This document shows positions 2,544 through 35,782 of a DNA stretch of 64,000 nt, piece by piece; the stretch's first letter is position 1; each line of letters opens with the position of its first letter. Source of the DNA: Synechococcus sp. PROS-9-1 (lineage in GTDB: Bacteria > Cyanobacteriota > Cyanobacteriia > PCC-6307 > Cyanobiaceae); NCBI RefSeq assembly GCF_014279775.1, contig NZ_CP047961.1:620001-684000 (forward strand), given 5' to 3'. The position numbers and the translations under genes were made by a program. The notes under the pieces are model-generated. The model was not told the DNA's origin. It saw only the letters and a list, made by a program, of their open reading frames with translations, and searched no databases.

Positions 2544-2581
2544 GGTGCGGCCGTTCATTCAAGAAGCGAACTTGAAAGGTA

Positions 2582-4345: not shown

Positions 4346-4419
4346 GGCGGATGAGGGGATTCGAACCCCCGGATGGCGGCACCACAAGCCGCTGCCTTAA
4401 CCACTTGGCGACACCCGCC
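4346..4419 (-). tRNA. tRNA-His (anticodon GTG)
   Basis: Read on the minus strand, the sequence folds as a complete cloverleaf. The acceptor has eight pairs because the tRNA-His-specific extra G at -1 (4419) pairs with C73 (4346). The anticodon loop is CTTGTGGT with anticodon GTG, and the T-loop is TTCGAAT. No CCA is encoded directly after C73. The extra G-1:C73 pair is the known identity element for histidyl-tRNA synthetase. Confidence 0.97.
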
Positions 4420-4461
4420 GTGTCGGGTAAGAATCTACCAATTGGCCTACTTGTCCTGGAG

Positions 4462-4887
4462 ATGCTCATCGGTCTTTTCCGTAAGCCATCGGCCAACGCA
4501 GTGGCCGCCGTTCTCGCCTTGGCCGCCTCTGGTGTGGCACTCACCTTCACCAATCCCTCTTCTGAAGACTTCAAAAGCTATGCGGGCGGCCAACTCGTCT
4601 CCTTGATCAGCGACGAGTTGTGTGATGGTGGTTTGCCGATGGTGCTACAGCTTTGGGTGAAAGATTGCCCGCGCTTGATTCTTGATCAGGAGCCAGCGTT
4701 GGCGGAGCTGGCTGGTCAATTCAGCCGTCGTCTCAACTTTGGCTTCGCCAGCGTTTACACCACTGAGATTGGTGGACAGGACCTACTCCCCACCTTGCGA
4801 CTTCCGCAGTATTCGGTCACGACCCTCGGAATCGCCGGTCAATTTGTCATCCTTCACTCCAGCAGTGACGCCGGCAAGATCGAATGA
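4462..4887 (+). CDS. DUF4359 domain-containing secreted or membrane protein
   Basis: 141 residues, function unknown. Seen: a short N-terminus with a hydrophobic segment (ANAVAAVLALAASGVALTFT), then the DUF4359 pattern: TNPSSEDFKSYAGGQL, a central CDGG..WVKDCPRLI with two cysteines, and a C-terminal stretch ending in a beta-rich GIAGQFVIL. The frame is open upstream to 4351, but that part reads through tRNA-His on the other strand. ATG 4462 (MLIGLFRK) gives the normal family length. Its TGA overlaps the ATG of the following amidohydrolase by 4 nt, so the two are probably translated together although no functional link is known. Confidence 0.85.
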   Translation: MLIGLFRKPSANAVAAVLALAASGVALTFTNPSSEDFKSYAGGQLVSLISDELCDGGLPMVLQLWVKDCPRLILDQEPALAELAGQFSRRLNFGFASVYTTEIGGQDLLPTLRLPQYSVTTLGIAGQFVILHSSSDAGKIE

Positions 4888-6140: not shown

Positions 6141-6175
6141 AGCTGAGGATCACCTCAAGTCAGCCCTGAATCGCC

Positions 6176-7507: not shown

Positions 7508-8041
7508 TCAGCAATCCAGGCTGTCGCGTGTTGCAATACCGCTTGTGGGATTCACGCCATCAGCGTCCTGACAAAGCCGGCGTTGATCTTCCCGATCCAA
7601 CAGGGCATCACTGAAATCAGCCCCTTCGATGTCTGCACCGGCAAAGCTGCTTCCGGAAGCGATCACGCCGATGAGCAAGGCATCGCGTAGATCCGTTTTG
7701 GAGAAATCAGCGCGATCCATCAAGGCATCACTGAGGTCGGCGCCATGGAAATTTGCCCCAGAGAATTCTGCTTGGGTAAAGATCGTTCCTTGCAGGTTGG
7801 CGTCGCTGAAATCTGCGCCTTTTCCGGTCGCTCCAGCGAAGGACGTGTTGAAGAGGTTCTGGCCATGAAAATCACCACCGCTTTGGTTGGTCAGGGTGTA
7901 ATCCACGCGCTCTTGGAACAAGGCTCGATCTTGGAGCCCCACACCGGTGGAGGTATCGAGAGCGATGACAGGGAATGACAGCGCTGTCATGACCGCCAGC
8001 AGAACCATCGCGAACAGGGAGCGCAGAATCTGGTTGCGCAT
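7508..8041 (-). CDS. Secreted pentapeptide-repeat protein
   Basis: 177 residues from ATG 8041 (an upstream ATG at 8068 would add nine). Seen: an N-terminal signal peptide (hydrophobic SLFAMVLLAVMTALSFPVIA, likely cleavage after ALA-type PVIALD), then pentapeptide repeats of the A(D/N)(L/F)xx type (GADFSDANLQGTIFTQAEF, HGADLSDALMDRADFSKTD) forming a right-handed quadrilateral beta-helix, and a C-terminal cap with two cysteines (RRLCQDADG, DSLDC). Likely exported to the thylakoid lumen or periplasm, like known lumenal pentapeptide proteins of cyanobacteria. Function unknown. Confidence 0.88.
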   Translation of the reverse strand: MRNQILRSLFAMVLLAVMTALSFPVIALDTSTGVGLQDRALFQERVDYTLTNQSGGDFHGQNLFNTSFAGATGKGADFSDANLQGTIFTQAEFSGANFHGADLSDALMDRADFSKTDLRDALLIGVIASGSSFAGADIEGADFSDALLDREDQRRLCQDADGVNPTSGIATRDSLDC

Positions 8042-8142
8042 GACGGATGCATTGAAAGCTGACCTCACTCTGCCGTTCGTGCACGCTGAATGGATCGTGG
8101 CTTAGCGACTGGCCATAGAGGATTGAGTGGAGCTCTTTATCC

Positions 8143-9399
8143 CTAGGGCTCTTTCAGAACTCCTTCTGCCAATAACGATCCAATCAAATACAAGGAGCCT
8201 GCAATCACAGGCGTTGGCTTCGGTTTGTCTGCATCGTTCTTGAACAGGCTGAGGAGAACGTCCTCAATGCTTGAGGCGCTCTTCAGTTGATGTGCATGCG
8301 TTGGGCAGATCTCGCTCAATTGATCGGCTGTCCAGCTCCCATGCCCTGGCACCGGAACGATCCAGGCTTCATCGTTTGGCTCCAACAAAATCCTGAGCAT
8401 TTCCGGGGCTTGCTTGTGGGCCTGAATGCCAAGAATCCAGATCTGTTGTTGCCCTGACTGGTTCCAGCAACGACGCTCGAGCGCGAGCTGCTCAGCCGCA
8501 TCAGGGTTGTGGGCTCCATCCACGCGCACAAACTGGTGGTTCCAGTGCAGTGTTTGAAGCCGTCCAGGCCAACGGGCCTGGGCCAGCCCTCGCTGGATCT
8601 GCTCCTCTGTGATCGAATTGCCAAGTGCATTCATCCGTCGTAACGCTGCACGGGCAACGGCTCCATTACGCCGTTGAAGATGTCCAGGTAGCCCTAGCTC
8701 CCATTCATCTGGGAGGGGCTCCACCCACTCCAACGTTGCGCCCATCTCTTGGCTGCGCGCTTCCAAGACCTTGGTCACCGCTTCGTGTTGAGGGGCACTG
8801 ATCACATGGGCTCCAGGGCCGATCACCGCTGCTTTTTCGCCGCTGATGGCGGTTAAGGAGTGCCCGAGATGCTCGCAGTGATCCATTCCGATCGAGCCAA
8901 TGGCGATGAGCGGTCGATAGGGATGGGCCGTTGTGGCATCCAGTCGCCCTCCAAGGCCTGCTTCTAGGACGAGCCAATCCAAGGCGTTGGCTTCAAAATG
9001 GACAAGGGCAGCGCTGATCAGCTGCTCGAACGGGGTCAGGTTGTGATCCCATGCCACCGGTTGGAGTTGTTTTAAACGTTGGCGCAGTTGAGCTAGCTCA
9101 ATCTGCTGCTGGTTAACGCAAATCCGTTCACACCAACTGGTGAGATGGGGAGACGTGGTGAGGCCAGAGCGCAGACCTGCTGCCGTCAGCCCGCTGTGAA
9201 TCATGCAAGCGATCGACCCTTTGCCATTGGTGCCGACCACCTGCACGGCGGGAACATCAGCACAGGGGTTGGCTAGATCGTTGAGAGCCGTCTGCATCCG
9301 TTCAAGCGATAGATCCATTCCCCGCTGCTCGAACGGCGAGAGCAAGTCCGCCAATTCATCGATGGGATCGGCTTTGGGATCGACCTTGGAGCGGGTCAC
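8143..9399 (-). CDS. folC: Bifunctional folylpolyglutamate synthase / dihydrofolate synthase
   Basis: Mur-ligase-type ATP-dependent enzyme that adds glutamate to dihydropteroate and folates in the cytoplasm. Seen: the P-loop VVGTNGKGSIACMI (about residue 55), LTTSPHLTSWCERI, the omega loop region LEAGLGGRLDATTAHP, IGMDHCEHLG, and the C-terminal VRVDGAHNPDAAEQL motif. 418 residues is normal. It starts with GTG at 9399, overlapping the TGA of argD by 4 nt, so it is coupled to that gene. Confidence 0.95.
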   Translation of the reverse strand: MTRSKVDPKADPIDELADLLSPFEQRGMDLSLERMQTALNDLANPCADVPAVQVVGTNGKGSIACMIHSGLTAAGLRSGLTTSPHLTSWCERICVNQQQIELAQLRQRLKQLQPVAWDHNLTPFEQLISAALVHFEANALDWLVLEAGLGGRLDATTAHPYRPLIAIGSIGMDHCEHLGHSLTAISGEKAAVIGPGAHVISAPQHEAVTKVLEARSQEMGATLEWVEPLPDEWELGLPGHLQRRNGAVARAALRRMNALGNSITEEQIQRGLAQARWPGRLQTLHWNHQFVRVDGAHNPDAAEQLALERRCWNQSGQQQIWILGIQAHKQAPEMLRILLEPNDEAWIVPVPGHGSWTADQLSEICPTHAHQLKSASSIEDVLLSLFKNDADKPKPTPVIAGSLYLIGSLLAEGVLKEP

Positions 9400-10637
9400 G
9401 CGTTCAGCAGTTCCAGCGTGCGTTCAAGGCGGGAGAGCAGCTCTTTTACCTCTCGGCGATCGATCACTAAGGGAGGAACCATCCGCACCACTTTGGATCC
9501 GGCAGGAACGAGCAAGAGTTTTTGAGCTAGAGCTGCTTTGACAACGGCAGCAGCATTGAGATCGCAGTCCTCTCGAATGACCAAACCCTGCAATAACCCC
9601 CAACCTCGGGCGTCCTCAAGTTGTCCAGGAAAGCGTTGAATGAGCTGGTGGAGTCCAGCTCTTAATTGCTCACCCCGTTCGGTCACGTTGCGGAGCAGCT
9701 GTCTCCGTTCCAATTCGCGCGCGACGGTAAGACCAGCGCGACAAGCAAATGGGTTGCCGCCAAACGTACTGGCGTGATCTCCGGGGGTGAATAGGTCGGC
9801 ATGTTGGGTTGTGAGAAGGGCACCGATCGCATGGCCACCACCGAGCCCTTTCGCCAGGGTGATCACATCCGGTTGGACATCCAGTTGCTCGTAGCCCCAG
9901 AGCCTGCCGCTGCGACCCATCCCCACTTGAACTTCGTCAAAGATCAACAGGATGTTGCGTTCATCGCAGTGGCGACGAATCGCACGGAACACATCGGGAT
10001 CTCCCGGATTTACACCACCTTCGCCTTGGAGTGGTTCGATCAGCACAGCGCAAACCCGTGGACCATCGGCCTCTAGGCGATCTAAAAGCTGTTCAAAGCT
10101 ATTGATGTCGTTGTAAGTGAAGGTCTCAAACCCCTCCACCATCGGCTCAAACCCCACGTGATAGCGAGGTTGTCCAGTGGCGCTCACCGCAGCAAGCGTG
10201 CGCCCATGGAAGCTTGCGGCTGCCGTCAAGATGACGGGCCGTTCGATCCCCCGCCGTTGATGGCCATGTTTGCGGGCCAATTTGATGGCCGCTTCATTGG
10301 CTTCCGCACCGGAATTGCAGAAGAACACACTGTCAGCGCAGCTGTTGGTTACGAGCCAACGGGCCAGCTCTTCCTGCTCAGGAATTTCATAGAGATTGGA
10401 GACATGCTGGAGGCGGCTGAGCTGATCCTTCAGGGCCCGCCGCAGTGCACGGTTGCTATGGCCGAGGGTGCAAGTGGCAATTCCAGCTACGGCATCGAGG
10501 TAGCGATGGCCTTTGTGGTCACGGACCCAGCAACCTTTCCCACGCACCAGGGTGAGCGGGTAGCGGTTGTAGGTCCCCATCACAGCAGTTGAGGACGACT
10601 CCTTGATACCAGTGGTTTTGGGGGATGTGTTTACCAT
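9396..10637 (-). CDS. argD: Acetylornithine aminotransferase
   Basis: PLP-dependent class III aminotransferase of arginine biosynthesis (N-acetylornithine to N-acetylglutamate semialdehyde). Seen: FCNSGAEANEAAIKLARKHG, SFHGRTLAAVSATGQ, the PLP aspartate strand LLIFDEVQVGMGRSG, and the Schiff-base lysine in TLAKGLGGGHAIGALL. ATG 10637 (MVNTSPK) gives 413 residues; an in-frame ATG at 10700 exists but adds an unlikely basic stretch. Followed at 4 nt overlap by folC. Confidence 0.93.
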   Translation of the reverse strand: MVNTSPKTTGIKESSSTAVMGTYNRYPLTLVRGKGCWVRDHKGHRYLDAVAGIATCTLGHSNRALRRALKDQLSRLQHVSNLYEIPEQEELARWLVTNSCADSVFFCNSGAEANEAAIKLARKHGHQRRGIERPVILTAAASFHGRTLAAVSATGQPRYHVGFEPMVEGFETFTYNDINSFEQLLDRLEADGPRVCAVLIEPLQGEGGVNPGDPDVFRAIRRHCDERNILLIFDEVQVGMGRSGRLWGYEQLDVQPDVITLAKGLGGGHAIGALLTTQHADLFTPGDHASTFGGNPFACRAGLTVARELERRQLLRNVTERGEQLRAGLHQLIQRFPGQLEDARGWGLLQGLVIREDCDLNAAAVVKAALAQKLLLVPAGSKVVRMVPPLVIDRREVKELLSRLERTLELLNA

Positions 10638-10756
10638 TTCGCCCGACTGTTGACCAGTGGCCTTCGTTCTTCTATTGAAGCTGACCGCCCTTGATGGCAT
10701 GGGTCACGGATCAGCAAATTGCCCATTTAATGGGTGGGATCATCCCGGTTAGGTCA

Positions 10757-10838
10757 TACAGGTGGTCGGACTTGAACCGACAAGGGTTTCCCCGCCGCAT
10801 TTTGAGTGCGGTGCGTCTACCAATTCCGCCACACCTGC
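10757..10838 (-). tRNA. tRNA-Leu (anticodon CAA)
   Basis: Minus-strand cloverleaf of 82 nt with the long variable arm of a leucine tRNA. The D-arm carries the usual GGCGGAATTGGTAGACGC. The anticodon loop is CTCAAAA with anticodon CAA reading UUG. The discriminator base is A73 (10757), a leucine identity element. The first acceptor pair is a G-U wobble. CCA is not encoded. Confidence 0.96.
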
Positions 10839-10922
10839 TCGTTCGCGTCTCCAGACGCTCAAGGGCCTTCAATGGATTGAGGACTCTCCAAATACCCTAC
10901 ACGTTTTGGACCTGAGGCTCAC

Positions 10923-12260
10923 TCAGGGTGTGCGCCTGGTCAATTTGGCTCCAGCACGGCCAAGCTTCGCTTCGATATCGGCGTAGCCACGGTCGAGGTG
11001 GTCGAGGCCGCTCACGTGCGACTTCCCTTGCGCCACCAGTGCTGCCAACACCATGGCGGCGGAGGCTCTGAGATCGGTGCCATTCACTGGAGCCCCGCTG
11101 AGTGCGGACACACCTTCCACAACAGCAGTGTTGCTTTGAACCCTGATCGAGGCACCCATGCGCTGTAGCTCTGCGACGTGCTGCATCCGGTTTTCGTAGA
11201 TTTTTTCCGTGATCACACTGGTTCCCTGAGCCGTGGCCAGTAAGGCCATGAACGGTGCTTGAAGATCGGTGGGAAAACCAGGGAACGGTTGGGTGGTGAT
11301 GTCGATCCCCCGGATCTCCCCGGGAGTGATCGTGATCCCTTCCTGATCAATGTCAAGTTTGCAGCCACAGTCGCGCAGCTTTTGCAGAACGGCAGTGAGA
11401 TGTTCAGGGATCACGGGAGCCACTCTGAGCTTGGAGCGGGTGATGGCAGCAGCAAGCAGGAAGGTGCCGGCTTCAATCCTGTCGGGGATCACCGTGTAAT
11501 CACAACCGCTGAGTTGACCCACACCTTCAACAGTGATGGTGGGTCCACCGGCACCGCTGATTTTTGCGCCCATGGCAATCAGCAAGTTGGCGAGATCTTG
11601 TACTTCAGGCTCCTGAGCTGCATTGGAGATCACGCTTGTGCCTTGAGCCAAAGCTGCAGCCATCAGAACGGTTTCTGTGGCGCCAACACTGGGACAATCA
11701 AAGACGATGGATGCTCCTTTCAGGCGATGTTGACTGCCTGGAATGGAGGCTGAAATGATGCCGTGCTCAACATTGACAACGGCGCCTAACGCTTTCAATC
11801 CGCGGATATGTTCGACCACAGGCCTCGCACCGATTTGGCATCCACCTGGGAGAGGCACCCGTGCAAATCCCATTCGAGCAAGTAGAGGGCCAATCGCAAA
11901 AAAACTGGCTCGCAGGCCATTCACCAATTCATAGGGAGGTGCGGCTCCTGTCATCCGATCGGCACGAAGTTGCACCACTTCGCCGTTGCGTTGAACATCC
12001 ACGCCCAGGGAGGTGAGGATCTCGGACATTCCATCGATATCGGTGAGCGGTGGAACGTTGTGCAGGGTTAGGGGGGCTTCGGTCAGAAGGGAGGCCGTCA
12101 TCAGCACGAGGGCTGAGTTTTTAGCCCCGCTCACACGCAGCTCTCCACTCAGGATTGTTCCTCCATCAATCTCTAGGTGCGGCTTGAGAATGTCTTGAGA
12201 CGCAAGAGCCGCTGCCTTCATGCCCGTGTTGCCTAAATTCTCGACCATCTTCACCAACAA
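10923..12260 (-). CDS. murA: UDP-N-acetylglucosamine 1-carboxyvinyltransferase
   Basis: First committed step of peptidoglycan synthesis: transfer of enolpyruvate from PEP to UDP-GlcNAc. Seen: LRVSGAKNSALVLMTASLLT (substrate-binding lysine-asparagine pair), the catalytic loop PLPGGCQIGARPVVEHI with the fosfomycin-target cysteine present, and PTDLQAPFMALLATAQG in the C-terminal half. 445 residues as drawn; in-frame ATGs at 12248 and 12221 (MKAAALAS) are also possible and the conserved part begins only about 28 residues in. Confidence 0.95.
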   Translation of the reverse strand: MLVKMVENLGNTGMKAAALASQDILKPHLEIDGGTILSGELRVSGAKNSALVLMTASLLTEAPLTLHNVPPLTDIDGMSEILTSLGVDVQRNGEVVQLRADRMTGAAPPYELVNGLRASFFAIGPLLARMGFARVPLPGGCQIGARPVVEHIRGLKALGAVVNVEHGIISASIPGSQHRLKGASIVFDCPSVGATETVLMAAALAQGTSVISNAAQEPEVQDLANLLIAMGAKISGAGGPTITVEGVGQLSGCDYTVIPDRIEAGTFLLAAAITRSKLRVAPVIPEHLTAVLQKLRDCGCKLDIDQEGITITPGEIRGIDITTQPFPGFPTDLQAPFMALLATAQGTSVITEKIYENRMQHVAELQRMGASIRVQSNTAVVEGVSALSGAPVNGTDLRASAAMVLAALVAQGKSHVSGLDHLDRGYADIEAKLGRAGAKLTRRTP

Positions 12261-12374
12261 GGATGAGACCGTCTAGACGGCCGGCGCTCAAACTGGTTTC
12301 GTTGAGCCCCAGATCGTGTCCACGACTTCAAAAGGATGATGTCGTATGTTCTCTAGGTCACCTTTGTGACACTG

Positions 12375-12456
12375 GCGGTTGTGGCGGAATTGGTAGACGC
12401 GCATGTTTCAGGTACATGTGTCTTCGGACGTGGGAGTTCAAGTCTCCCTAACCGCA
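12375..12456 (+). tRNA. tRNA-Leu (anticodon CAG)
   Basis: Plus-strand 82-nt leucine tRNA: acceptor GCGGTTG, D-arm GGCGGAATTGGTAGACGC, anticodon stem CATGT/ACATG around loop TTCAGGT (anticodon CAG), long variable arm, and A73 at 12456. The last bases of the tRNA plus the following ATATT are repeated 20 bp downstream (see the direct repeat entry). Confidence 0.96.
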
Positions 12457-12480
12457 TATTTTTTCCCTTAACCGCATATT
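12449..12480 (+). repeat. Short duplication of the tRNA-Leu 3' end
   Basis: The 12-mer TAACCGCATATT occurs at 12449-12460, spanning the tRNA 3' end, and again at 12469-12480. Similarity extends leftwards as CCCTAACC against CCCTTAACC. A repeated tRNA 3' end is the usual footprint of an attachment site, but only about 20 bp lies between the copies, so at most this is a scar. Confidence 0.5.
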
Positions 12481-12509
12481 CTGTTTGAGTTAGAGCTCTC
12501 AACTCGTTC

Positions 12510-12758
12510 ATGATTGTGCTCAAGATTTCCAATTCATCGGAGGTAGTGGCTTCCAAAGTTGGTAAGTTTCTCGAATTTTTAACTCCGGATTCCGTTGATC
12601 AAGCCACAGTCGAAGATCAGGTTATTAAAAAATTAGTTGAAAACTTGGCAGCGGAAGGCATCAAGGGTGAGATCGCCGCAGTACAAGGTTTAGATATCAG
12701 TGGCCAGGAGCTCAATCTTCAAGAAGGTTTAAAGGTGCGTAAGCACACAAGTTTCTGA
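12510..12758 (+). CDS. Small conserved hypothetical protein
   Basis: 82 residues, no recognised domain. Seen: an amphipathic, largely charged sequence starting MIVLKISNSSEVVASKVGKF, with alternating helix-like stretches (TVEDQVIKKLVENLAAEG) and a GLDISGQELNLQEGL tail. It sits 53 nt after tRNA-Leu and 4 nt before the GTG of the TrmH methyltransferase on the same strand, so it is probably the first gene of that unit. Sequence character and coupling make it likely to be real; its job is unknown. Confidence 0.7.
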   Translation: MIVLKISNSSEVVASKVGKFLEFLTPDSVDQATVEDQVIKKLVENLAAEGIKGEIAAVQGLDISGQELNLQEGLKVRKHTSF

Positions 12759-12762
12759 GATC

Positions 12763-13635
12763 GTGTCCTTTGAAGGTCACTCAGAAGAGCTGATCACAAG
12801 CCGACGCAATCCTTTGGTGCGACGACTTCGTTCGCTGTCAACTCGTTCAGGGCGAGAAAAACATGGTGTTGTCTTACTAGAAGGAACTCACCAACTTCAA
12901 GAACTTCAGAACCATGTTTTGCGTGATTCTGTTCCACTTGATGTTGTTGCAACTCCCGCTTGGTTGGAGATGCATGCTGGCTTGATTCGCACTTTGCCAG
13001 GGTTAGTGCGTGTGCACAGGATGAGCGGCGAAGCGTTGCAAGCCGGTTTAAGCACGGTTCAACCCGATGGTGTTGCCTGCTTGCTGCCGCTCACTTGTTT
13101 GCCTTCCACGGTTGAGGCTCCCGAATTTGTTCTGGCGCTTGATCGCATCCAGGATCCAGGCAATCTCGGAACCTTGCTTCGCACCGCGCGGGCCGCAGAC
13201 ATCCAGCAGGTTTGGTGCGCCTCCGGTGCTGATCCGTTGGCGCCGAAGGTGGTGCGATCGTCGGCTGGTGCGATCTTGAGCCTGCCGGTGGAGCGCTTTG
13301 GCCCTGATCCAGCTGGAGGGGTCGTTCAACTCGCGGAACGACTCACGCAAGCCCGCGATGCTGGGCTTCAAATTGTGGCCACTTTGGTGCCAGACGCAGC
13401 AGCAGATCGAAACATTCAGCCCTACTGGGAGTTGGACTGGACCCTGCCCACGGTGCTCCTGCTCGGCAACGAAGGGGCGGGCTTGGATCCGCTGTTGCAG
13501 GCCCGTTGCTCCCATGGGGTGACCTTGCCGCACAGCTCAGCTGTTGAATCTCTGAATGTGGCTGTTGCTGCGGTCCCTCTCCTTTTGGAGAGGCGACGGG
13601 CGAGAATGACGTCTTCAACGCAGAAGATTGGGTGA
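12763..13635 (+). CDS. TrmH/SpoU-family RNA 2'-O-methyltransferase
   Basis: SPOUT-fold methyltransferase for tRNA or rRNA ribose. Seen: an N-terminal substrate-binding domain (LITSRRNPLVRRLRSLSTRSG), then the three SpoU motifs: ALDRIQDPGNLGTLLRTARA, VLLLGNEGAGLDP and LPHSSAVESLNVAVAA, which build the knotted SAM site. It starts with GTG at 12763. 290 residues fits 23S rRNA methyltransferases of the RlmB/TsnR type, but the exact target nucleotide cannot be assigned. Its TGA overlaps the GTG of lpdA by 4 nt. Confidence 0.9.
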   Translation: MSFEGHSEELITSRRNPLVRRLRSLSTRSGREKHGVVLLEGTHQLQELQNHVLRDSVPLDVVATPAWLEMHAGLIRTLPGLVRVHRMSGEALQAGLSTVQPDGVACLLPLTCLPSTVEAPEFVLALDRIQDPGNLGTLLRTARAADIQQVWCASGADPLAPKVVRSSAGAILSLPVERFGPDPAGGVVQLAERLTQARDAGLQIVATLVPDAAADRNIQPYWELDWTLPTVLLLGNEGAGLDPLLQARCSHGVTLPHSSAVESLNVAVAAVPLLLERRRARMTSSTQKIG

Positions 13636-15074
13636 GCGACGCCAGTTTCGACTTCGATGTGATCGTTATCGGTGCCGGTTATGGCGGCTTCGACGCAGCC
13701 AAACATGCAGCCGATCATGGTCTCAAGGTGGCCGTCCTTGAATCCCGCGATATGGGTGGCACCTGCGTGAACCGTGGCTGTGTTCCCTCAAAAGCCCTGT
13801 TGGCTGCCAGTGGTCGTGTGCGTGAGCTGGCTGATGCGGAGCATCTCGCAGGGTTTGGGATTCATGCGGCTCCAGTGCGTTTTGAGCGCAAGAAGATTGC
13901 TGATCACGCCAACCAGCTGGTGGCCACAATTCGGGCCAATCTCACCAAAACCTTGGAGCGGGCAGGGGTCACGATCCTTCGCGGTCAAGGCCGGCTTGAA
14001 GGACCACAACGCGTTGGGGTGCGTGAGCTCAGCGGCGTGGACCGGGTGTTAACGGCACGGGATGTGATCCTGGCCACCGGCTCTGATCCCTTTGTGCCCC
14101 CAGGTATTGAAACGGATGGACGCAGTGTTTTCACCAGTGATGAGGCGGTCAATCTGGAATGGTTGCCCCGTTGGATTGCGATTATTGGCAGTGGTTATAT
14201 CGGACTGGAATTTGCCGACGTCTACACAGCTTTGGGCTGTGAAGTGACGATGATCGAGGCCTTGGATCGGGTGATGCCCACCTTCGATCCCGATATCGCC
14301 AAGCTCGCAGCCCGCAAATTGATCGAGGGCCGTGATATTGATGCGCGCTCTGGAGTTTTGGCTAAATCGATTCAACCCGGATCACCGGTGCAAATTGAGC
14401 TGGTTGACATGCAAACCAGAGAGCCCGTCGAGACGTTGGAAGTGGATGCCGTGCTCGTGGCGACCGGGCGTGTTCCCAGCAGCAAGCATCTCAATCTGGA
14501 CTCTGTGGGAGTGGAGACCAATCGCGGATTCATTCCAGTTGACGACAACATGCGCGTGTTGGTGAATGGTGCTCCTCAGCCCAATCTCTGGGCTGTTGGT
14601 GACGTCACCGGCAAGTTGATGCTTGCTCACACGGCCGCGGCTCAGGGTTCGGTTGCTGTCGACAATATTCTTGGTCACCCTCGGCAAATCGATTACCGCA
14701 GCATTCCTGCAGCTACCTTTACGCATCCTGAGATCAGTTCTGTGGGCTTATCGGAAGCCGATGCCAAGCAGCTCGCAGGAGAAGAGGGTTTTGAGCTGGG
14801 TACGGTGCGGAGCTATTTCAAAGCCAATTCCAAAGCACTCGCCGAATTGGAAAGTGATGGCGTGATGAAGTTGTTGTTCAACAAAACCAGTGGGGAGGTC
14901 CTTGGGGCACACATCTTCGGTTTGCATGCCGCTGATCTGATTCAAGAGATTGCTAATGCTGTTGCTCGCCGGCAAAGCGTTACGCAACTTGCCAATGAGG
15001 TGCACACGCACCCAACGCTGAGCGAAGTGGTGGAAGTGGCCTACAAGCAGGCGGCTTCAGCGGTGGGGGCTTGA
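13632..15074 (+). CDS. lpdA: Dihydrolipoamide dehydrogenase (E3)
   Basis: FAD- and NAD-dependent E3 subunit that reoxidises lipoamide in the pyruvate dehydrogenase and related complexes. Seen: FAD-binding VIVIGAGYGGFDAAKHAAD, the redox-active disulfide GGTCVNRGCVPSKALL, NAD-binding AIIGSGYIGLEFADVY, the second FAD motif LWAVGDVTGKLMLAHTA and the C-terminal catalytic HTHPTLSEVVEVA. 480 residues. GTG start overlaps the methyltransferase stop. The E1 alpha gene pdhA is elsewhere in the window (35794-36900). Confidence 0.95.
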   Translation: MSDASFDFDVIVIGAGYGGFDAAKHAADHGLKVAVLESRDMGGTCVNRGCVPSKALLAASGRVRELADAEHLAGFGIHAAPVRFERKKIADHANQLVATIRANLTKTLERAGVTILRGQGRLEGPQRVGVRELSGVDRVLTARDVILATGSDPFVPPGIETDGRSVFTSDEAVNLEWLPRWIAIIGSGYIGLEFADVYTALGCEVTMIEALDRVMPTFDPDIAKLAARKLIEGRDIDARSGVLAKSIQPGSPVQIELVDMQTREPVETLEVDAVLVATGRVPSSKHLNLDSVGVETNRGFIPVDDNMRVLVNGAPQPNLWAVGDVTGKLMLAHTAAAQGSVAVDNILGHPRQIDYRSIPAATFTHPEISSVGLSEADAKQLAGEEGFELGTVRSYFKANSKALAELESDGVMKLLFNKTSGEVLGAHIFGLHAADLIQEIANAVARRQSVTQLANEVHTHPTLSEVVEVAYKQAASAVGA

Positions 15075-28996: not shown

Positions 28997-29938
28997 ATGG
29001 TTTCCTCAACAGCTCGGACCTCCGAGACCCAGAGACGCAGAAGCAGTGATCCGATTAGTTGGTACCTGTCGACGATTGGCCGAATACCTCTTCTGACTGC
29101 TGCTGAAGAAATTGAGCTGGGAAATCAGGTTCAGAAGTTTATGGAGCTGACGCAAGACGGCTCTGTCTCTCCTGACAGCGAAGAGTTCAGCTCCAAAGAT
29201 CGACGCATGATTCGCGTTGGTCAGCGCGCTAAGCAGCGGATGATGAAGGCCAACCTTCGTTTGGTGGTGAGTGTTGCCAAGAAATACCAAGGCAAGGGCC
29301 TTGAGCTTCTTGATCTCATCCAAGAAGGATCGCTTGGCTTGGAACGGGCGGTAGAGAAATTTGACCCAACCCGCGGATATAAGTTTTCGACCTATGCCTT
29401 TTGGTGGATTCGCCAGAGCATGACGCGAGCGATTGCTTGTCAGTCACGCACCATTCGTCTCCCGGTGCATTTGAGCGAGCGTCTTACCACCATCCGCAAG
29501 GTGAGTTTGGATTTAGCTCACAAGCTCGGAGCGATGCCGAGCCGCCTTGAGATTTCAGAAGCGCTGGATATGCCCGTAGAGGAGCTTGACTCCTTGCTGC
29601 GCCAAGCGCTCACCACCAGCAGTCTTGATGCACCTGTGAATGGAGAGGATGGCCGCAGTTTCCTTGGCGATTTGATTGCCGACTCTTCTGCGGAAGAGCC
29701 GCTCGACAAGGTTGAACAGCGTATCCACCATGAACAACTTGGCCGCTGGTTGAGTCATCTCAGTGAGCAGGAGCAACATGTGCTCACCCTGCGTTTTGGT
29801 TTAAACGGCAACGAACGCCACACCTTGGCTCAAATTGGTCGTTTGCTCGATGTGTCGCGTGAACGCGTACGCCAGGTGGAATTGAAGTCGCTGCGCAAGC
29901 TGCGTAATCTCACCCGTCGTATTGCTCCTACCTTTTGA
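28997..29938 (+). CDS. RNA polymerase sigma factor, RpoD-related group 2 type
   Basis: 313 residues with all sigma-70 regions: 1.2 (DPISWYLSTIGRIPLLTAAEE), 2 (KANLRLVVSVAKKYQGKG, LLDLIQEGSLGLERAVEKFD, YKFSTYAFWWIRQSMTRAI), 3 (RLPVHLSERLTTIRKV) and 4 (VLTLRFGLNGNERHTLAQIG with the helix-turn-helix SRERVRQVELKSLRKL). It lacks the long N-terminal region of the primary sigma factor, so it is an alternative, nonessential-type sigma as found in several copies in cyanobacteria. A displaced 5' fragment of the deacetylase gene begins 38 nt after its stop, suggesting that the two were originally neighbours. Confidence 0.93.
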   Translation: MVSSTARTSETQRRRSSDPISWYLSTIGRIPLLTAAEEIELGNQVQKFMELTQDGSVSPDSEEFSSKDRRMIRVGQRAKQRMMKANLRLVVSVAKKYQGKGLELLDLIQEGSLGLERAVEKFDPTRGYKFSTYAFWWIRQSMTRAIACQSRTIRLPVHLSERLTTIRKVSLDLAHKLGAMPSRLEISEALDMPVEELDSLLRQALTTSSLDAPVNGEDGRSFLGDLIADSSAEEPLDKVEQRIHHEQLGRWLSHLSEQEQHVLTLRFGLNGNERHTLAQIGRLLDVSRERVRQVELKSLRKLRNLTRRIAPTF

Positions 29939-29975
29939 TTGATTGCGTCTGCGGCTGGCTGCGTTCAAGCCAGTC

Positions 29976-30050
29976 GTGGCACTCTTTCTTGTTTGCCAGA
30001 AGGTTTTAAGAGCTTCTTTTCTCTCTAGCCATCGCTTTTCGATGGGGTGA
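29976..30050 (+). pseudogene. Older displaced 5' end of the deacetylase gene (copy A)
   Basis: A 75-nt open frame starting GTGGCA and ending ATGGGGTGA that aligns without gaps to copy B (31960-32034): by my hand count 53 of 75 bases match, with 25 of the last 27 identical (TCTAGCCATCGCTT then CGATGGGGTGA). It keeps an uninterrupted reading frame encoding SSHRF-S-MG before the stop. It lies 38 nt after the sigma factor stop. I infer it is the oldest remnant of the start of the gene now intact at 34868. Confidence 0.65.
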
Positions 30051-30204
30051 ATGGAATCAATCAATTGTTGATTGATCTCTAGAACCTTTCATTGCTCCCG
30101 TTATGAGCGCCAAAGAACGGCTTCAGACAACCAAAACCAACAGACCGGAAGGCTTTGGTAACGACTAGGTGAGACATTTCTGCCTTCATCCTTGAGACGA
30201 ACCC

Positions 30205-30411
30205 TTGACCGAACCTAATCAGCCCAAAAAGCCCAGAGCGCTCACCTATACGGAAATGATGAATGGTGGACAGCAACAAATGGATGATGTAACCCATCAG
30301 CAAGAGGTGAACCTGCAGCGCCGAAAGGATGTACTTGAACGCTCTGTCGAGCATCTGGAGCAGTCCTTCAAGTCTGAAGCTGATCGAATCGGTGGTGTCA
30401 GTGGGATCTGA
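30205..30411 (+). CDS. Small charged hypothetical protein (first of three overlapping genes)
   Basis: 68 residues, no known domain. Seen: a hydrophilic Gln-rich sequence with a probable helix QQEVNLQRRKDVLERSVEHL. The start would be TTG at 30205 (MTEPNQPKKP); an ATG within MMNGGQQQM is an alternative. Its TGA overlaps the next ATG by one base (TGATG), and the third gene begins in the same way, so the three form a coupled set. Cargo of the first island module. Confidence 0.5.
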   Translation: MTEPNQPKKPRALTYTEMMNGGQQQMDDVTHQQEVNLQRRKDVLERSVEHLEQSFKSEADRIGGVSGI

Positions 30412-30776
30412 TGAGTGCGCTTGCTTGCCTTGTTATCTCGGCGTTTTTTGCCTATCTGATCGCTCAGTTCCGAAAGAGACGTGCCGCTAGCAAGAGCACC
30501 ACGGCTTGGCGTGAAGCTTCAGAGCTTGTCTTTGACAGGGACCTGCGGTTCCAGATTAAACAGGAATACGAGACCGGAATGGAAGCCAACAATGCTGATG
30601 GGTATGCCGAATCAAGAGACTCTCTCGTTAGCCATTTGGCTTCCAATCTGTTGATGTTGGCGAATAGGCGGCTGGAGATAGAGCCGACTAGGAGTGAGGC
30701 TGAGGAGTTTGTGCGTCAGCACTGTGATCTCGATGATGACCTGATCGAAGGAATGTGGATTTCAAAGTTCAGTTAA
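30411..30776 (+). CDS. Membrane-anchored hypothetical protein
   Basis: 121 residues. Seen: an N-terminal hydrophobic segment (LACLVISAFFAYLIAQF) followed by basic residues (RKRRAASK), indicating an inner-membrane anchor with a cytoplasmic helical domain rich in acidic residues (REASELVFDRDLRFQIKQEY). No family recognised. Starts by TGATG overlap and ends by TAATG overlap with its neighbours. Confidence 0.6.
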   Translation: MSALACLVISAFFAYLIAQFRKRRAASKSTTAWREASELVFDRDLRFQIKQEYETGMEANNADGYAESRDSLVSHLASNLLMLANRRLEIEPTRSEAEEFVRQHCDLDDDLIEGMWISKFS

Positions 30777-30961
30777 TGGAAACCCCCCCTGCAATGAGAG
30801 ACCATCTCCCTTGCCGGATTTGCGCAACACCAGTTCCCATCCCTCCGCGGTTCAAACGTGTAAAAACGGCTGTCTGTCCGAGTTGTGCCCATGAAGGGCT
30901 AGACCAAATCGTGACCATCCGGCTCTTCCAAGAGCAGATCCTTGATTCGCGCACCTCATAG
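30776..30961 (+). CDS. Small zinc-ribbon-like protein
   Basis: 61 residues from ATG 30776, which overlaps the preceding TAA by one base. Seen: two CxxC knuckles, LPCRICATPV and AVCPSCAHEG, spaced about 20 residues apart around a basic segment (PPRFKRVKTA), a typical small zinc ribbon. It could bind nucleic acid or protein; nothing in the sequence says which. Confidence 0.6.
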   Translation: METPPAMRDHLPCRICATPVPIPPRFKRVKTAVCPSCAHEGLDQIVTIRLFQEQILDSRTS

Positions 30962-31040
30962 TTTTTATAGGTATTCATCAATGACGTACGCGTGTTGCCT
31001 GGACACCAGTTTTATTGGTTTTGCCAACTACTTTTGGTAT

Positions 31041-31856
31041 TTAAAATGTTGAGTAGGGAAAGCCTAAATCCGGCTTGTATGGTCTTTTCTCTTTTCCTTT
31101 GCATTCATCTTTGACCAATTGAATCCACTGCACATCATTGATCTTTGCCATCACTCTTGCCTCGCTTTCCAACCGTCGTTGCTTTGGGCGATAGTTGTGT
31201 ACGTTGATTGCATCACGTTGTGGAAGGCGTGCTGCGATTTGCTGATCATTTAGATAAGGTACTCCATTGCGACAACGGTGTTGAACTGCATGCCATCCCT
31301 CATGCTTCAGGGTGTCAATTAATTCAACAAGGTCACCATTGTGAAACCCCTGGCACATCACGACTAATTCGTTTTTGATTCGGTAATAGCCATATAAATT
31401 TCTACCTTTACATCCCCAGGTTTTAGAATTATTTGACCAAAGAATAGACCTTTGTCCAAGGACTTGTTTGATTGCTTCCCCTAATTTCTCTAGCCTCGGG
31501 CTGTCGAGATGGTGAGGAGTGGTAGACATCGTTTTGATTTCACGTCCATGTTCCCTAGCTGCTTGTTTAATCCTTGTTGTGTCTGTGCTGTGTCCTTTGA
31601 TGCATGAGAAGAAATTTGCTTCTTGCTTGCATTTTTGGATGCTTGGTGCAGCGAGCTTAAAAGCATTATTCCCTAACTTAATTAATCCAGAGATACAGCG
31701 CTTCTTTGCCGAAGGTTCTTCGGGATTTCCTGTTTTCAGATTGGTCCCGCAAACCATCTCTGCGTAGCTTTGAACTTGTGCTTGCATCGAAGCATCCGCA
31801 GTCATCGTTGAGGCGAGCGAGGATAGGCCCAGTGCTACGAACAGAAGAGTGCGCAT
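31041..31856 (-). CDS. Secreted Cys-rich protein with HExxH zincin motif
   Basis: 271 residues from ATG 31856. Seen: a signal peptide (MRTLLFVALGLSSLASTMTADA), several cysteines, a putative zinc site in LKHEGWHAVQHRC (HEGWH fits HExxH, in a helix), and a downstream acidic segment RRLESEARVMAKI whose glutamates could give the third ligand. It may be a small extracellular metalloprotease. No prosequence is recognised. It stands alone on the minus strand in island module 1. Protease activity is inferred from the motif only. Confidence 0.65.
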   Translation of the reverse strand: MRTLLFVALGLSSLASTMTADASMQAQVQSYAEMVCGTNLKTGNPEEPSAKKRCISGLIKLGNNAFKLAAPSIQKCKQEANFFSCIKGHSTDTTRIKQAAREHGREIKTMSTTPHHLDSPRLEKLGEAIKQVLGQRSILWSNNSKTWGCKGRNLYGYYRIKNELVVMCQGFHNGDLVELIDTLKHEGWHAVQHRCRNGVPYLNDQQIAARLPQRDAINVHNYRPKQRRLESEARVMAKINDVQWIQLVKDECKGKEKRPYKPDLGFPYSTF

Positions 31857-31959
31857 CAGACAACCAATCAAGCTATCTCCATCCACTATTAGTCACTACG
31901 CAGCTGGTTGATGCGGTTGTTTGATTTCAATCAAAAATATTGAAGAGCTTTGAAAGCTA

Positions 31960-32034
31960 GTGGCCGTACCTCTCGTTTATCACCAGGCCTACAGCGCGCC
32001 TCTTCCGTCTAGCCATCGCTTCCCGATGGGGTGA
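31960..32034 (+). pseudogene. Displaced 5' end of the deacetylase gene (copy B)
   Basis: A 75-nt frame GTGGCCGTACC...GATGGGGTGA that encodes the same first 23 residues as the intact gene at 34868 (MAVPLVYHQ...SSHRFPM), then Gly and stop. Against copy C it differs at six positions up to GATGG, all synonymous third bases. Similarity also extends about 15-20 nt upstream of the GTG (GAGCT...AAG/ACTAG). It ends exactly where copy A ends, at ATGGGGTGA. Confidence 0.85.
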
Positions 32035-32768
32035 GGGCATTTAGATCCAGTGATAGCAATGGGTTTGAAGGTGTGTTGTGATCCTGAATCACAACGCGGT
32101 TAACAACGCAAGATCAACTTCAAAGTGCGACCGCTAGCCAAGAAGAGATGCCTGAAGTGCTCTTGGATAGCTCTAGAAGCAGTAAGCCATAGACCTGATA
32201 GACAAAGTCTTTAAAGACCTCAGAGGCTATAGAGCACGACACCCTCAGCTATTGGCTGGAGAGGTAGGGGGCTATGGGGGTATCGGGGTAATTAATGAGA
32301 GAGGTACATATGTAATTCACCTCATAAATTTTTATACTTTTTCGGTCCAAGAACCAAGTCACAACTATCCGGCACTCACATTCATCCTTGAAGCCTGAAC
32401 TTTTTCGAAGACCGGAAGGTAGCTTAAGAAACGAAATAAGTTCTTTCTGATTTTATTGCTTAGCTTTAATGATTAAGAATAGATTTGCTGAGATAAATCC
32501 TTGGGTGAGGTGCCAACTATTTTTCTGCAGTATTTTGACAGATTGATGCCCCAGCGTTTATTTAAGTCCTGATACTGACCTGGCCATAAAAGCCCCTTTC
32601 TGTCTCACAGCTCGACAACCAAAGACTGCAGTTGTCGATGAATTGGGATCGACCTCTCTGAAACGTCTGTTTTCAAGGGGCTTGACTTGTTGGGCCAAAT
32701 GAGAATCTGGTCTTCATCCAAGCCTTCTGCTCGAAAGCAAGCTAAATTGAATAATATTATTTTATCAA
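32035..32768. other. Gene-free left part of island module 2
   Basis: 734 nt, AT-rich, no credible gene on either strand. It contains the 12-bp palindrome GTCTTTAAAGAC (32207-32218), a hairpin CGACAAC/GTTGTCG (32613-32637) and, just before the next gene, the palindrome AATAATATTATT (32750-32761), which may contribute a -10-like element. It could hold a promoter or small RNA, but nothing is decisive. Confidence 0.4.
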
Positions 32769-33935
32769 ATGAAAAAAAGATACTTACTTCTGGTATTTAT
32801 GATGGGTAATGTATTGTGCATGCCCGCGCTTGCGAATGGATGGGGAAAAAATAAAAGAATCGACAAGATCGAGCCAATAAATATTTCATCGACGCGAGAC
32901 TTTCACGATCCAAGTAAATCACTATGCACCCAATACTCCTTCGAAACCTTTCTAGAACCCACAACCTGCCACCAATCAAACAGATCACTAAGCACAATTG
33001 AATCAATACATTTAAGATTGTTTAGAGAAGCCATTGCTTTGGTCGATGGGAATAAAGATATTGGATCATTTCTTTCAAGTAAGTTCATCGGCCTCGTTGC
33101 GGAGAATACCAATCAGTTCATTAACGACACCATTCAGGATATACCGTTTTTTGCGCAAACTAATGTCAACTTAGACTTTTCAAGCGAATCATCTTCTTCG
33201 CTGAGCCTGGATTCGTTCTTGAATTTAAGGTCAGAATCAGACGAAAGCGGTTATCTAAATAATATCCTTTTCTCACAGGCTAGAGTCGCAGCTTATACTG
33301 GTAGCGATACAACTACAAATCTAGGAATAGGTTACAGAAAAATAGTCGATAGCGACAAACTTGTGGGCCTTAACGGTTTTTGGGACTACAGGATCGTTGG
33401 CTATGGGCCTTCGTACTCGCGATGGGGAATTGGTGCAGAATTTGGATGGAAGGATCTTTCTATTACTAATAACTGGTACATAGCAGGCACTGGGGTGCAT
33501 TCAGTTACTGTTGACGATTCACAATATCAAGAAAGAGTTGTCCCAGGCTGGGACGTTGAAGTGGCTTACAGGATACCGTCAAATCCAAATATTTCTCTGG
33601 CATTAAAAGCCTATAGATGGGATTATCAGAAAACGAATGATGTCGATGGAGTAGAAGGCTCAGTTTCATGGCAAGCAACGCCTCATTTAGCTATGAAAAC
33701 GTGGGCATCGACAAACGTAGCGGCATATCCGACAACTGAGAATGCTTACCTTGATGATGACAATTTACGCATCGGGATAGGCTTTACTTGGTCTCATAGA
33801 CCGGTTGTTTTCAAAAAACAAGACTACCGAAGAAATCTGTCAACACAAATGACGCAGCCAGTTAGAAGAACATACGAAGTTCTACTTGAAAGATATAGTT
33901 CTGGATCAGGGTTTATCAACAGAGCTTCTGGCTAA
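32769..33935 (+). CDS. Inverse-autotransporter (intimin/invasin-type) beta-barrel protein without passenger
   Basis: 388 residues. Seen: a signal peptide (KKRYLLLVFMMGNVLCMPALA), an N-terminal region with two cysteines, then from about residue 127 the inverse-autotransporter barrel pattern: PFFAQTNVNLDFSSES, SLSLDSFLNLRSE, ILFSQARVAAYTG, TTTNLGIGYRKIV, LVGLNGFWDYRIVG, SRWGIGAEFGWKDLSI and VPGWDVEVAYRIP. After the barrel only about 40 residues follow, with a linker-like PVRRTYEVLLERYSS, and no Ig-like passenger. In intimin/invasin the barrel holds a C-terminal extracellular passenger, so this is a bare or truncated form. The next gene, 38 nt on, encodes a secreted protein. Low GC sets it apart from the flanks. 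Confidence 0.82.
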   Translation: MKKRYLLLVFMMGNVLCMPALANGWGKNKRIDKIEPINISSTRDFHDPSKSLCTQYSFETFLEPTTCHQSNRSLSTIESIHLRLFREAIALVDGNKDIGSFLSSKFIGLVAENTNQFINDTIQDIPFFAQTNVNLDFSSESSSSLSLDSFLNLRSESDESGYLNNILFSQARVAAYTGSDTTTNLGIGYRKIVDSDKLVGLNGFWDYRIVGYGPSYSRWGIGAEFGWKDLSITNNWYIAGTGVHSVTVDDSQYQERVVPGWDVEVAYRIPSNPNISLALKAYRWDYQKTNDVDGVEGSVSWQATPHLAMKTWASTNVAAYPTTENAYLDDDNLRIGIGFTWSHRPVVFKKQDYRRNLSTQMTQPVRRTYEVLLERYSSGSGFINRASG

Positions 33936-33973
33936 ATATTCTAATTGTTAAAATCATTTTTTCTAATAAGATC

Positions 33974-34810
33974 ATGTCTTTCTTCTCCACCAAAAAATTT
34001 GCCGCACCCGCATCAATCCTTCTTCTCTCTCTAGGCATGATGAGTGGTGCGCCGTCAAGAGCGCAAACTTCATGTGTAGAGGGAAGTGCACCACCTGATG
34101 ATGGATGCCTTAAAGGAGCAGAAAAATATGAATTGATTATTTACGAGATGGGACTGTGTACTTCTGATCCCTTAATCCTAAGTTCAGGAAACAGAGTATT
34201 CAATAAATCCGGGGCTTCTTGTGTGGCTTCATTTGCTAGTGATAATGGTAAGATTGCAAATATTGCAGGCTCGCAGACCGTTGATCTTGGCCAGGGTTCT
34301 AAACCACCCAGTAACACTTACTCACATGCCTATATCGTACTAAGTAAAAATATCACTATCAAAGGCACACATATTATTGAAGGAATAACGCATTACTCAA
34401 TCGAGTATGTCAACGAAGACGGAACGATAGGATTCTCGTCCACAAATTCATCCTCCTACGAAGAATTCATAGAGAGTGTTGACGATGTGTCTTCATCAGA
34501 GTCCTGGGGAGCCTACATGCCGGCTGAAAATCATCCTGACGGAGGCAGTGTTACTGCGTTGTTGATTGGCACAGGATATTCTGTTGACGACAATGGTGCT
34601 AATGCGGCGAGTAGCAAATCTGCTGTCGAAAAACTTATCGGTGTTTTTACACCCAGCGAAGGAGGTGTAACTATCGATGAGAATGATAGAGGATTAAACG
34701 TAACTTTAGATTCAAGTAATGGAATGTCAGTCTGGCAAGAAGGTTCACCTTCTGCAGGTCTAGGTTTCGGTTCTGCGCCATTCAGACCCTCTTTTACTGT
34801 AATAAAATAA
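33974..34810 (+). CDS. Secreted hypothetical protein
   Basis: 278 residues of unknown function. Seen: a signal peptide (FAAPASILLLSLGMMSGAPSRA), Cys-containing N-terminal part (SCVEGSAPPDDGCLKG, MGLCTSDPL, GASCVASF) and a beta-rich remainder with Ser- and Asn-rich stretches. The pattern YELIIYEMGLCTSDPL resembles a group of unnamed secreted proteins in marine bacteria, by memory only. Position directly after the inverse-autotransporter barrel suggests it is exported with it or acts at the cell surface. Low GC like its neighbour. Confidence 0.6.
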   Translation: MSFFSTKKFAAPASILLLSLGMMSGAPSRAQTSCVEGSAPPDDGCLKGAEKYELIIYEMGLCTSDPLILSSGNRVFNKSGASCVASFASDNGKIANIAGSQTVDLGQGSKPPSNTYSHAYIVLSKNITIKGTHIIEGITHYSIEYVNEDGTIGFSSTNSSSYEEFIESVDDVSSSESWGAYMPAENHPDGGSVTALLIGTGYSVDDNGANAASSKSAVEKLIGVFTPSEGGVTIDENDRGLNVTLDSSNGMSVWQEGSPSAGLGFGSAPFRPSFTVIK

Positions 34811-34867
34811 GTACTGCAAACACTTATTCGAACGTAATTAAAATCTATTGCAAGAGCTAGAAAACTA

Positions 34868-35782
34868 GTGGCAGTACCGCTTGTTTATCACCAGGCCTAC
34901 AGCGCGCCTCTGCCGTCGAGTCATCGCTTCCCGATGGCGAAGTTCAGGATGTTGTTTGAGGCCCTAAAGACGTCGGGTCTAGCCGAATCCGCTCAGGTTC
35001 ATACTCCTCTTCCCGTTCCTCGCCGTTTGCTGGAAACAGTGCATCAGCGGCGCTATCACGAGGCGTTTGCTCGGGGCACGCTCGATCGGCAAGCGCAACG
35101 CAGGATTGGTCTTCCGGCCACCACACCCTTGGTGCAACGCACCTGGTTATCCGTGGGGGGGACACTTCTCACCGCCAGGTTGGCTCTTGCGCACGGTGTG
35201 GCTTGCCATCTCGCTGGTGGCACGCACCATGCCTTTCCAGATTATGGAAGCGGCTTCTGCATCTTCAATGACATTGCAGTGTCAGCCAGGGTTCTTCTGG
35301 ATGAGGGTTGCCTTGAGCGCCTGATGATTGTGGATCTTGATGTGCATCAAGGCGATGCCACTGCGCTGATCTTTGCTGACGACCCGCGGGTGTTCACCTT
35401 TTCTGCTCATGCTGCCTCCAACTTTCCGTCTCGGAAGCAGAGCAGCGATTGCGATTTGCCATTTGAAGATGGCGTTGAGGATCAGGCCTACGTGGCTGCG
35501 GTTGGTGAGGCGCTTCCTTCCCTCCTTGATCGCTTCAAGCCCGAACTGGTGCTCTACAACGCTGGAGTTGATCCGCATCAAGACGATCGCCTGGGCCGGC
35601 TTTGCTTGTCCGATATGGGACTTTTGCAACGCGATCATTTCGTGTTTGATGCCTGTCTGCGTCGTCAGATCCCAGTCGCCAGCGTGATTGGCGGTGGTTA
35701 CGACGCTCTTGATCCTCTGGTGAGGCGTCATGCCCTGGTGTTTCGTGCTGCGGCAGACCAGGCGAGATTGCATGGCCTTTAG
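34868..35782 (+). CDS. Histone-deacetylase-family amidohydrolase
   Basis: 304 residues, arginase/deacetylase fold. Seen: GGTHHAFPDYGSGFCIFND with the tandem catalytic histidines, LMIVDLDVHQGDATA (zinc ligands D and H), YNAGVDPHQDD (third ligand region) and SVIGGGYDALDPLV. Bacterial members deacetylate polyamines, acetoin-related or other small acetyl-amides; the substrate here is unknown. The GTG start at 34868 lies in the third copy of a repeated 5' end (others at 29976 and 31960), so the current promoter and first ~23 codons probably came with the inserted module. Converges with pdhA, 11 nt gap. Confidence 0.93.
   Translation: MAVPLVYHQAYSAPLPSSHRFPMAKFRMLFEALKTSGLAESAQVHTPLPVPRRLLETVHQRRYHEAFARGTLDRQAQRRIGLPATTPLVQRTWLSVGGTLLTARLALAHGVACHLAGGTHHAFPDYGSGFCIFNDIAVSARVLLDEGCLERLMIVDLDVHQGDATALIFADDPRVFTFSAHAASNFPSRKQSSDCDLPFEDGVEDQAYVAAVGEALPSLLDRFKPELVLYNAGVDPHQDDRLGRLCLSDMGLLQRDHFVFDACLRRQIPVASVIGGGYDALDPLVRRHALVFRAAADQARLHGL

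Follow-up and report, generated by a model that had tools for sequence, protein, structure and literature searches.

Serial insertions at the start of a histone-deacetylase-family gene in Synechococcus suggest site-specific elements that rebuild their target

We propose that a group of integrative elements found in Synechococcus and its relatives attaches at the 5' end of a histone-deacetylase-family gene. The window, i.e., the whole stretch of DNA that was analysed, comprises 64 kb (G000:C1:620001-684000) of a 2.27-Mb single-contig genome (G000). It is highly probable that elements integrated site-specifically at a core in the 5' end of this gene, that a start borne by the element rebuilt the gene, and that this happened twice in the window. 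In the proposed mechanism, a tyrosine recombinase encoded beside the right end of the element would act on a core that the element and the gene have in common (SHRFPM codons) and recombine the two. The element would carry a complete gene start to the left of its core, comprising an upstream flank, a start codon and the first ~22 codons. Integration would detach the old start as a stub, which in copies A and B would end in an element-derived stop, ATGGGGTGA, and the element's own start would be fused to the remaining gene, leaving the gene whole. The rebuilt gene would hold a new core, into which the next element could enter, displacing the previous start leftward. The rebuilt genes have open frames with conserved first codons behind element-type flanks. 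As read from the sequences, the proposal draws on stubs, similarity limited by the core, empty sites, genomes with the first element only and a recombinase beside the site in relatives. An excised circular form presumably existed, the elements presumably moved between cells, and the new flanks may drive transcription of the deacetylase gene.

The sigma gene, the three copies and the intact gene of the window locus lie on the plus strand. The fixed left neighbour of the site is a gene for a sigma-70 family factor (28997-29938; Pfam Sigma70_r2, 5.8e-23). Copy A (29976-30050) is, by alignment and synteny, what is left of the original deacetylase gene start, a stub that runs into the left end of element 1. 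Copy B (31960-32034), aligned with A and C, would be a gene start delivered by element 1 and severed by element 2. Copy C (34868-34942), assigned by alignment, would be the start delivered by element 2 and the present working start of the intact deacetylase gene (34868-35782; Pfam Hist_deacetyl, 1.1e-57), the putative rebuilt integration target. Copy A begins with GTGGCA, and its frame is open as far as ATGGGGTGA. A preliminary description of this DNA had reported that the 75-nt frame at 29976 resembles copy B without gaps, and recomputation gave the same figures: 53 of 75 bases were identical in register, with 28 of 48 upstream and 25 of 27 at the end. This unevenness (Fisher p 0.0015) is what integration predicts, since two different gene starts would be compared to the left of the core, and the same core and element end from there onward. 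Copies B and C shared 65 of 75 bases. When all positions of both strands were scanned with copy B, the best unrelated place in the window reached 37 of 75.

For the part of copy A outside its last 27 bases, the preliminary description would have given up its claim had the similarity to relatives been no better than chance. The first 48 bases of A are just 58% identical to those of B, and in a scan of the whole window with the first 48 bases of B, copy A scored 28 and the best unrelated place 26. Compared with 21 deacetylase starts of relatives, which are mutually related and therefore do not amount to 21 independent tests, the first 48 bases of A matched on average 25.9 of 48, and none of 20,000 shuffles of A scored as high. 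In the same comparison, A ranked third among 63,953 plus-strand positions of the window, after only B and C. These alignments confirm copy A, at the level of sequence, as a real observation, the decayed start of a deacetylase (Hist_deacetyl) gene. That A is a chance resemblance and that the sole recorded insertion lies between B and C is hardly conceivable; in addition to the rank and the shuffles, the native position of A and the empty-site and element-1-only genomes described below speak against it.

We compared the locus in 31 genomes of the genus, 29 of which gave a deacetylase match. The site was empty in 14 genomes and occupied in 8, the window included; 6 had no sigma gene in the fetched stretch, 1 was cut by a contig end and 2 had no deacetylase match. 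In the 14 empty genomes, the uninterrupted target gene lies 30-40 nt past the sigma stop, and copy A thus sits where the original gene was expected, as had been proposed. The preliminary description was right that A adjoins the sigma gene; the spacer, which it gave as 38 nt, is 37 nt, with A starting at the 38th base past the stop. In the occupied genomes, 2-12 kb separate the sigma gene from the deacetylase gene or, as in G027, the locus is spread over two contigs. The closest empty site was that of genome G015. In the window, in G027 and in G001, none of 2000 shuffles resembled the spacer and gene start of G015 as closely as did the 130 nt past the sigma stop, and in G007 and G021 only 3 and 2 of 2000 shuffles, respectively, did; this likewise argues against a chance resemblance. 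The similarity was indistinct from shuffles in G014, G006 and G024 (96, 215 and 265 of 2000), i.e., the original stub appears to have decayed past recognition in three of the eight occupied genomes. The position of the gene at the empty sites and the match to the G015 spacer and gene start together identify A as the start that the original gene left behind. An intact gene directly after the sigma factor had also been anticipated, with a 5' end closest to copy A. The first part agrees with the 14 empty genomes; the second does not, as A was 60% identical to G015 (nt 4-63) within a range of 60-67% for ten deacetylase starts. The case for A as the original stub is made by position and synteny rather than by the nearest sequence.

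Just past the sigma stop in G001 (L137), we observed a decayed stub core, CCCTATC-tgagc-GATAGGG, which forms an inverted repeat placed about as in copy A. Its bases differ from those of copy A on both sides. In this single case, the repeat possibly reflects selection on the core or on a hairpin. In the window, a terminator-like stem of 12 pairs (29949-29979) spans the spacer and the first bases of A; it may end the sigma-factor transcript. No consensus promoter stood out just upstream of B or C, as 11 were found and 7.9 expected between 29900 and 35000.

The relatives also preserve states that bear on the order of events. Parts of element 1 aligned in all eight occupied genomes of the genus (blastn blocks). 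The left insertion stands by itself in G006, G024 and contig C9 of G027, where the gene start occupies the place of copy B behind the same kind of preceding sequence and no element 2 was seen. These genomes with element 1 only and a B-like upstream sequence show that copy B was once the working gene start and that element 2 came later. A second stub with a second insert was found in the window, in G014 (0.96 kb) and in G021 (11.0 kb), and a right end that matches occurs on contig C10 of G027. The suggestion that at least two successive insertions are recorded with the oldest on the left is thus borne out by the element-1-only states, and the order A (original), element 1, B, element 2, C with the gene holds as read from these alignments. 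G001 and G007 share a different right end, which is possibly a further event; no second stub reached the threshold of 45 of 75 bases in either genome. Trees of the sigma gene and of the deacetylase gene to the right of the core failed to group the four carriers of element 2. Support at the relevant nodes was 15-77 with IQ-TREE and 0.34-0.99 (local) with FastTree, and the two single-gene trees disagreed with each other. Element 2 may represent one insertion with losses or several independent insertions in the clade.

The candidate attachment core, CCATCGCTTYYCGATGG, codes for HRFPM. On the plus strand of the window, it lies at 30029-30045 in copy A (CCATCGCTTTTCGATGG, an inverted repeat), at 32013-32029 in copy B (CCATCGCTTCCCGATGG) and at 34921-34937 in the intact gene (TCATCGCTTCCCGATGG, the HRFPM codons). 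The preliminary description had singled out the sequence shared at the junction, CGATGGGGTGA, as a candidate element end or recombination core, and it consists of the last part of the core followed by the opening bases of the element's left end. Similarity between stub and gene stopped in or just past CATCGCTTYYCGATGG in all eight pairs compared, from three genera (A-C and B-C of the window, G021, G014, G160, G189, G157 and G197); these were the pairs at hand and not a blind sample. Two of these genomes have direct repeats that end at gene nt 70-71: the repeat of G197 is perfect over 296 nt, and that of G157 is 178 nt long (94%). The two contigs of G027, C9 without element 2 and C10 with it, were identical over 77 nt from gene nt 64 and 82% alike leftward. 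As this length resembles an assembler k-mer, the contigs probably stem from two strains that were assembled together; even with such a mixture, the switch point remains informative. HRFPM was present in every intact gene start that we translated, and such conservation would offer the element a dependable target.

In copies A and B, the core forms a perfect 6-bp inverted repeat with a 5-nt loop. This would fit the core of a tyrosine recombinase but alone is weak evidence, because 6-5-6 inverted repeats occur at 41 places in the window. The same repeat could be read as the mark of a hairpin-recognising IS200/IS605-type (Y1) element that inserted at it, and the G021 element does encode a Y1_Tnp protein (5e-14). 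We consider this very improbable: the Y1 gene lies inside the G021 element and not at its end, the 41 repeats in the window make the hairpin unspecific, and no match was obtained among the window element ORFs that were scanned. IS200/IS605-type elements are not known to bring a replacement gene start.

Site-specific integration, the preferred reading, is also consistent with loci outside the genus, as the same pattern was found in two other genera. In G160, which belongs to another genus, the sigma gene is followed by 10 nt, a stub, 15.3 kb, a recombinase and the rebuilt gene. In G189, the stub lies ~0.7 kb past the sigma gene, and both ends of the element resemble those of the G160 element (left, 87% over 132 nt; right, 74% over 475 nt). 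We surveyed 40 further deacetylase loci of the family and examined the genomes with a recombinase hit separately. The sigma gene was in reach at 13 of the 40 loci, with a gap of at most 32 nt in 6 and of 475-1817 nt in 7. At the latter seven (L177, L178, L180, L181, L182, L186 and L210), no gene-start stub was recognised, and they represent either older, decayed insertions or simply longer spacers. Extra gene-start copies occurred at two of the 40 loci (G157 and G197), and a recombinase was found at none of the 40, G157 and G197 included. Because these long repeats come without a matching recombinase and the G197 insert has a G+C content like that of its flank (0.517 and 0.521, respectively), the repeats of G157 and G197 may arise otherwise. 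The island of G197 (L198, 328-6259) extends over 5.9 kb from stub to gene, has few long ORFs and perfect end repeats, and contains a Cyano-2 RNA (RF01702, 177 bits).

As an alternative, ordinary segmental duplication or recombination of the RecA type might have produced the repeated starts, and unrelated genes would then have gathered between them. The long perfect repeat of G197 around an insert of flank-like composition is what a recent duplication could leave, and the recombinase described below has no relative in the window genome. Nevertheless, in three genera the repeat ends on its right at the same core, whereas the left edge and the enclosed DNA vary. Moreover, a recombinase adjoins the rebuilt start in several genomes, and the G+C content of element 2 departs from that of the window. 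We therefore consider duplication improbable and retain site-specific integration as the explanation of the three copies.

Element 1, the older insertion, extends over 30046-31959 in the window. It contains plus-strand ORFs of 68 aa (30205-30411), 121 aa (30411-30776) and 68 aa (30755-30961, with CxxC pairs read from the sequence), for none of which a family was found. Of 151 sampled genomes of the family, 4 gave a match to the 121-aa ORF, and all four belong to the occupied clade. A minus-strand ORF of 281 aa (31041-31886) has an HEGWH motif, read from the sequence, a weak match to the DUF6782 metallopeptidase (0.02, below the cut-off) and a match to phrog_16003 (9.5e-11). A phage origin of this protein was considered and set aside, as tblastn of phage records at 1e-5 gave no match despite the phrog_16003 match. 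The right-end flank of element 1 (31915-31959, plus strand) was alignable with the pre-gene flank of the genomes with element 1 only; its alignment with the right end of element 2 was weaker.

Element 2, the younger insertion (32030-34867), has a left end alignable with that of the recombinase-bearing G021 element (71% over 331 nt, core included); the contents of the two differ. Its cargo, on the plus strand, consists of an inverse-autotransporter beta-barrel protein (32769-33935; IAT_beta, 3.4e-54) and a 278-aa protein (33974-34810), for which no family was found and to which 17 of 151 sampled genomes of the family gave a match. Both cargo proteins have relatives in the G027 element, and the same pair, a barrel gene followed by a gene for a ~275-aa protein, was observed in two elements (window 32769-34810 and L133 1881-4043). 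The G027 element also has a 435-nt direct repeat of 80% (L133 1261-1692 and 7691-8123). The G+C content was 0.467 in element 1 and 0.417 in element 2 (32035-34811), against 0.55 in the window.

A candidate for the enzyme was found in relatives. The G021 element encodes the Y1 transposase and, next to the recombinase, a T7-type RNA polymerase spread over two ORFs, besides other genes. It ends with the recombinase, a 531-aa protein that is divergent from the deacetylase gene and lies 141 nt before its start. This protein matched Phage_integrase at 9.2e-06 (26.0 bits, below the Pfam cut-off of 27.1) and the phrog_1 integrase at 2.8e-16; a second Phage_integrase match (2.7e-05, 24.5 bits) was also below 27.1. 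The recombinase on contig C10 of G027 is 87% identical to it. Residues R367, K395, H459, R462, H484 and Y492 were invariant in all four aligned recombinases, and we take them to be the catalytic set R-K-HxxR-H-Y of tyrosine recombinases. The recombinase gene lies ~140 nt from the rebuilt start in G021 and G027 and, in the other genus, in G160. The recombinase was matched in 9 of 350 family genomes; it or a remnant stands directly before the deacetylase start in five (G021, G027, G160, a fragment in G189 and a broken copy in G294) and was not seen beside the deacetylase gene in the other four. Taken together, a recombinase of the G021/G160 type likely acts on the core.

The window genome gave no match to this recombinase, and it has four Phage_integrase matches elsewhere. 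Since G000 lacks a recombinase relative, neither window element appears to be self-sufficient now. In element 1 of any genome, no recombinase match was obtained either, the matches being confined to the 9 of 350 genomes; the mobility of element 1 is therefore argued solely from its ends. Two genomes carry the recombinase past a MinE-like ORF, named by eye, at a distance of 0.6 kb (G088) and 2.1 kb (G110), from which the enzyme family probably has more than one target. In these two genomes, which represent two genera, the related recombinases are downstream of a MinE-like ORF and a LuxR-type HTH ORF, both named by eye (L163 of G110, ~9842-13845; L164 of G088, ~2031-4570), and this setting is perhaps a second target region.

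We also considered where such elements come from, a matter of origin that is compatible with the integration model. In G021 (L135 11557-13992, minus strand), the recombinase gene overlaps a gene for a T7-type RNA polymerase, which comes immediately after it and is divided into two ORFs (RPOL_N 1.8e-7, RNA_pol 8.6e-40, phrog_414 for both ORFs). This arrangement speaks for the elements being remnants of T7-like cyanophage prophages proper, and excerpts of PMC8776855 state that T7-like cyanophages carry integrases. However, the attP sites reported for these phages match tRNA-Leu (excerpts of PMC8776855). The G021 polymerase was less than 60% identical to every matching phage record and 29% identical to that of Synechococcus phage P60, and no polymerase match was found in the G160 element, the G027 contig or the window locus. 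No relatives of the recombinase were found in 50,697 phage records or in 72,556 plasmid records, and pattern scans of viral contigs with the single sequence and the four-sequence alignment yielded no confirmed relatives. An origin from prophages proper is accordingly rather unlikely. A free viral form was also sought in the viral contigs with a pattern of the core plus left end and was dropped after 0 hits. A further reading, plausible but less likely than not, is a new element lineage, perhaps derived from the early module of a T7-like podovirus (recombinase plus single-subunit RNA polymerase) and specialised on one deacetylase start across at least three picocyanobacterial genera, in which case parasites would serially reset the expression of the gene.

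The SXT integrase is reportedly a tyrosine recombinase, and SXT is said to supply a new prfC start. As described in excerpts of PMC2786100, SXT/R391 elements are conjugative and about 100 kb long, have a conserved integrase with a site in the 5' end of the protein-coding gene prfC, and can stack as two elements in tandem. The elements of the window type likewise use the 5' end of a protein gene and stack at one site, whereas they are ~1-15 kb long, have another target gene and reside in cyanobacterial hosts. No conjugation gene was matched among the selected element ORFs that were scanned. What is new relative to the SXT/R391 mode is the target gene, the hosts and the legible serial record.

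In the T7-like cyanophages P-SSP7 and S-TIP37, an integrase is used at a site that is conserved in their Synechococcus and Prochlorococcus hosts. The attP of these phages matches tRNA-Leu, and they formed no stable lysogens (excerpts of PMC8776855). They resemble the G021 element in that a T7-type RNA polymerase gene adjoins the recombinase there, but the target here is the deacetylase gene, and the insertions were stable enough to decay in place. The window has tRNA-Leu genes at 10757 and 12375, and the attachment target is the deacetylase gene, not tRNA-Leu. The same excerpts report that intact prophages are absent from marine Synechococcus and Prochlorococcus isolates. Tycheposons, first described in Prochlorococcus, are cargo-carrying elements with a tyrosine recombinase that are bordered by tRNA genes (excerpts of PMC10872708). 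The present elements share the cargo and, in G021, G027 and G160, a tyrosine recombinase but not the tRNA border, as the window has its three tRNA genes at 4345-12456, the nearest ending 17.5 kb left of the site. A full-text search of one collection with one wording returned no paper on a histone deacetylase gene as the target of an integrase or genomic island in Synechococcus.

Beyond the preliminary description, the analysis adds three points: a likely recombinase, a gene rebuilt with a start that the element brings, and the same pattern in two other genera. If the mechanism is true, each arrival would give the deacetylase gene a new upstream region and start, i.e., this would be a conserved gene whose upstream region and first codons come from mobile DNA. 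Since empty, single and double occupancy all survive, the order of arrivals can be placed on the host tree, and further sites can be revealed by scanning for stubs of gene starts that break off at a fixed core. Apart from these features, matches to the Glutamine-II riboswitch were observed in the window at 58639-58703 (46 bits) and inside the G021 element (L135 7451-7510, 58 bits).
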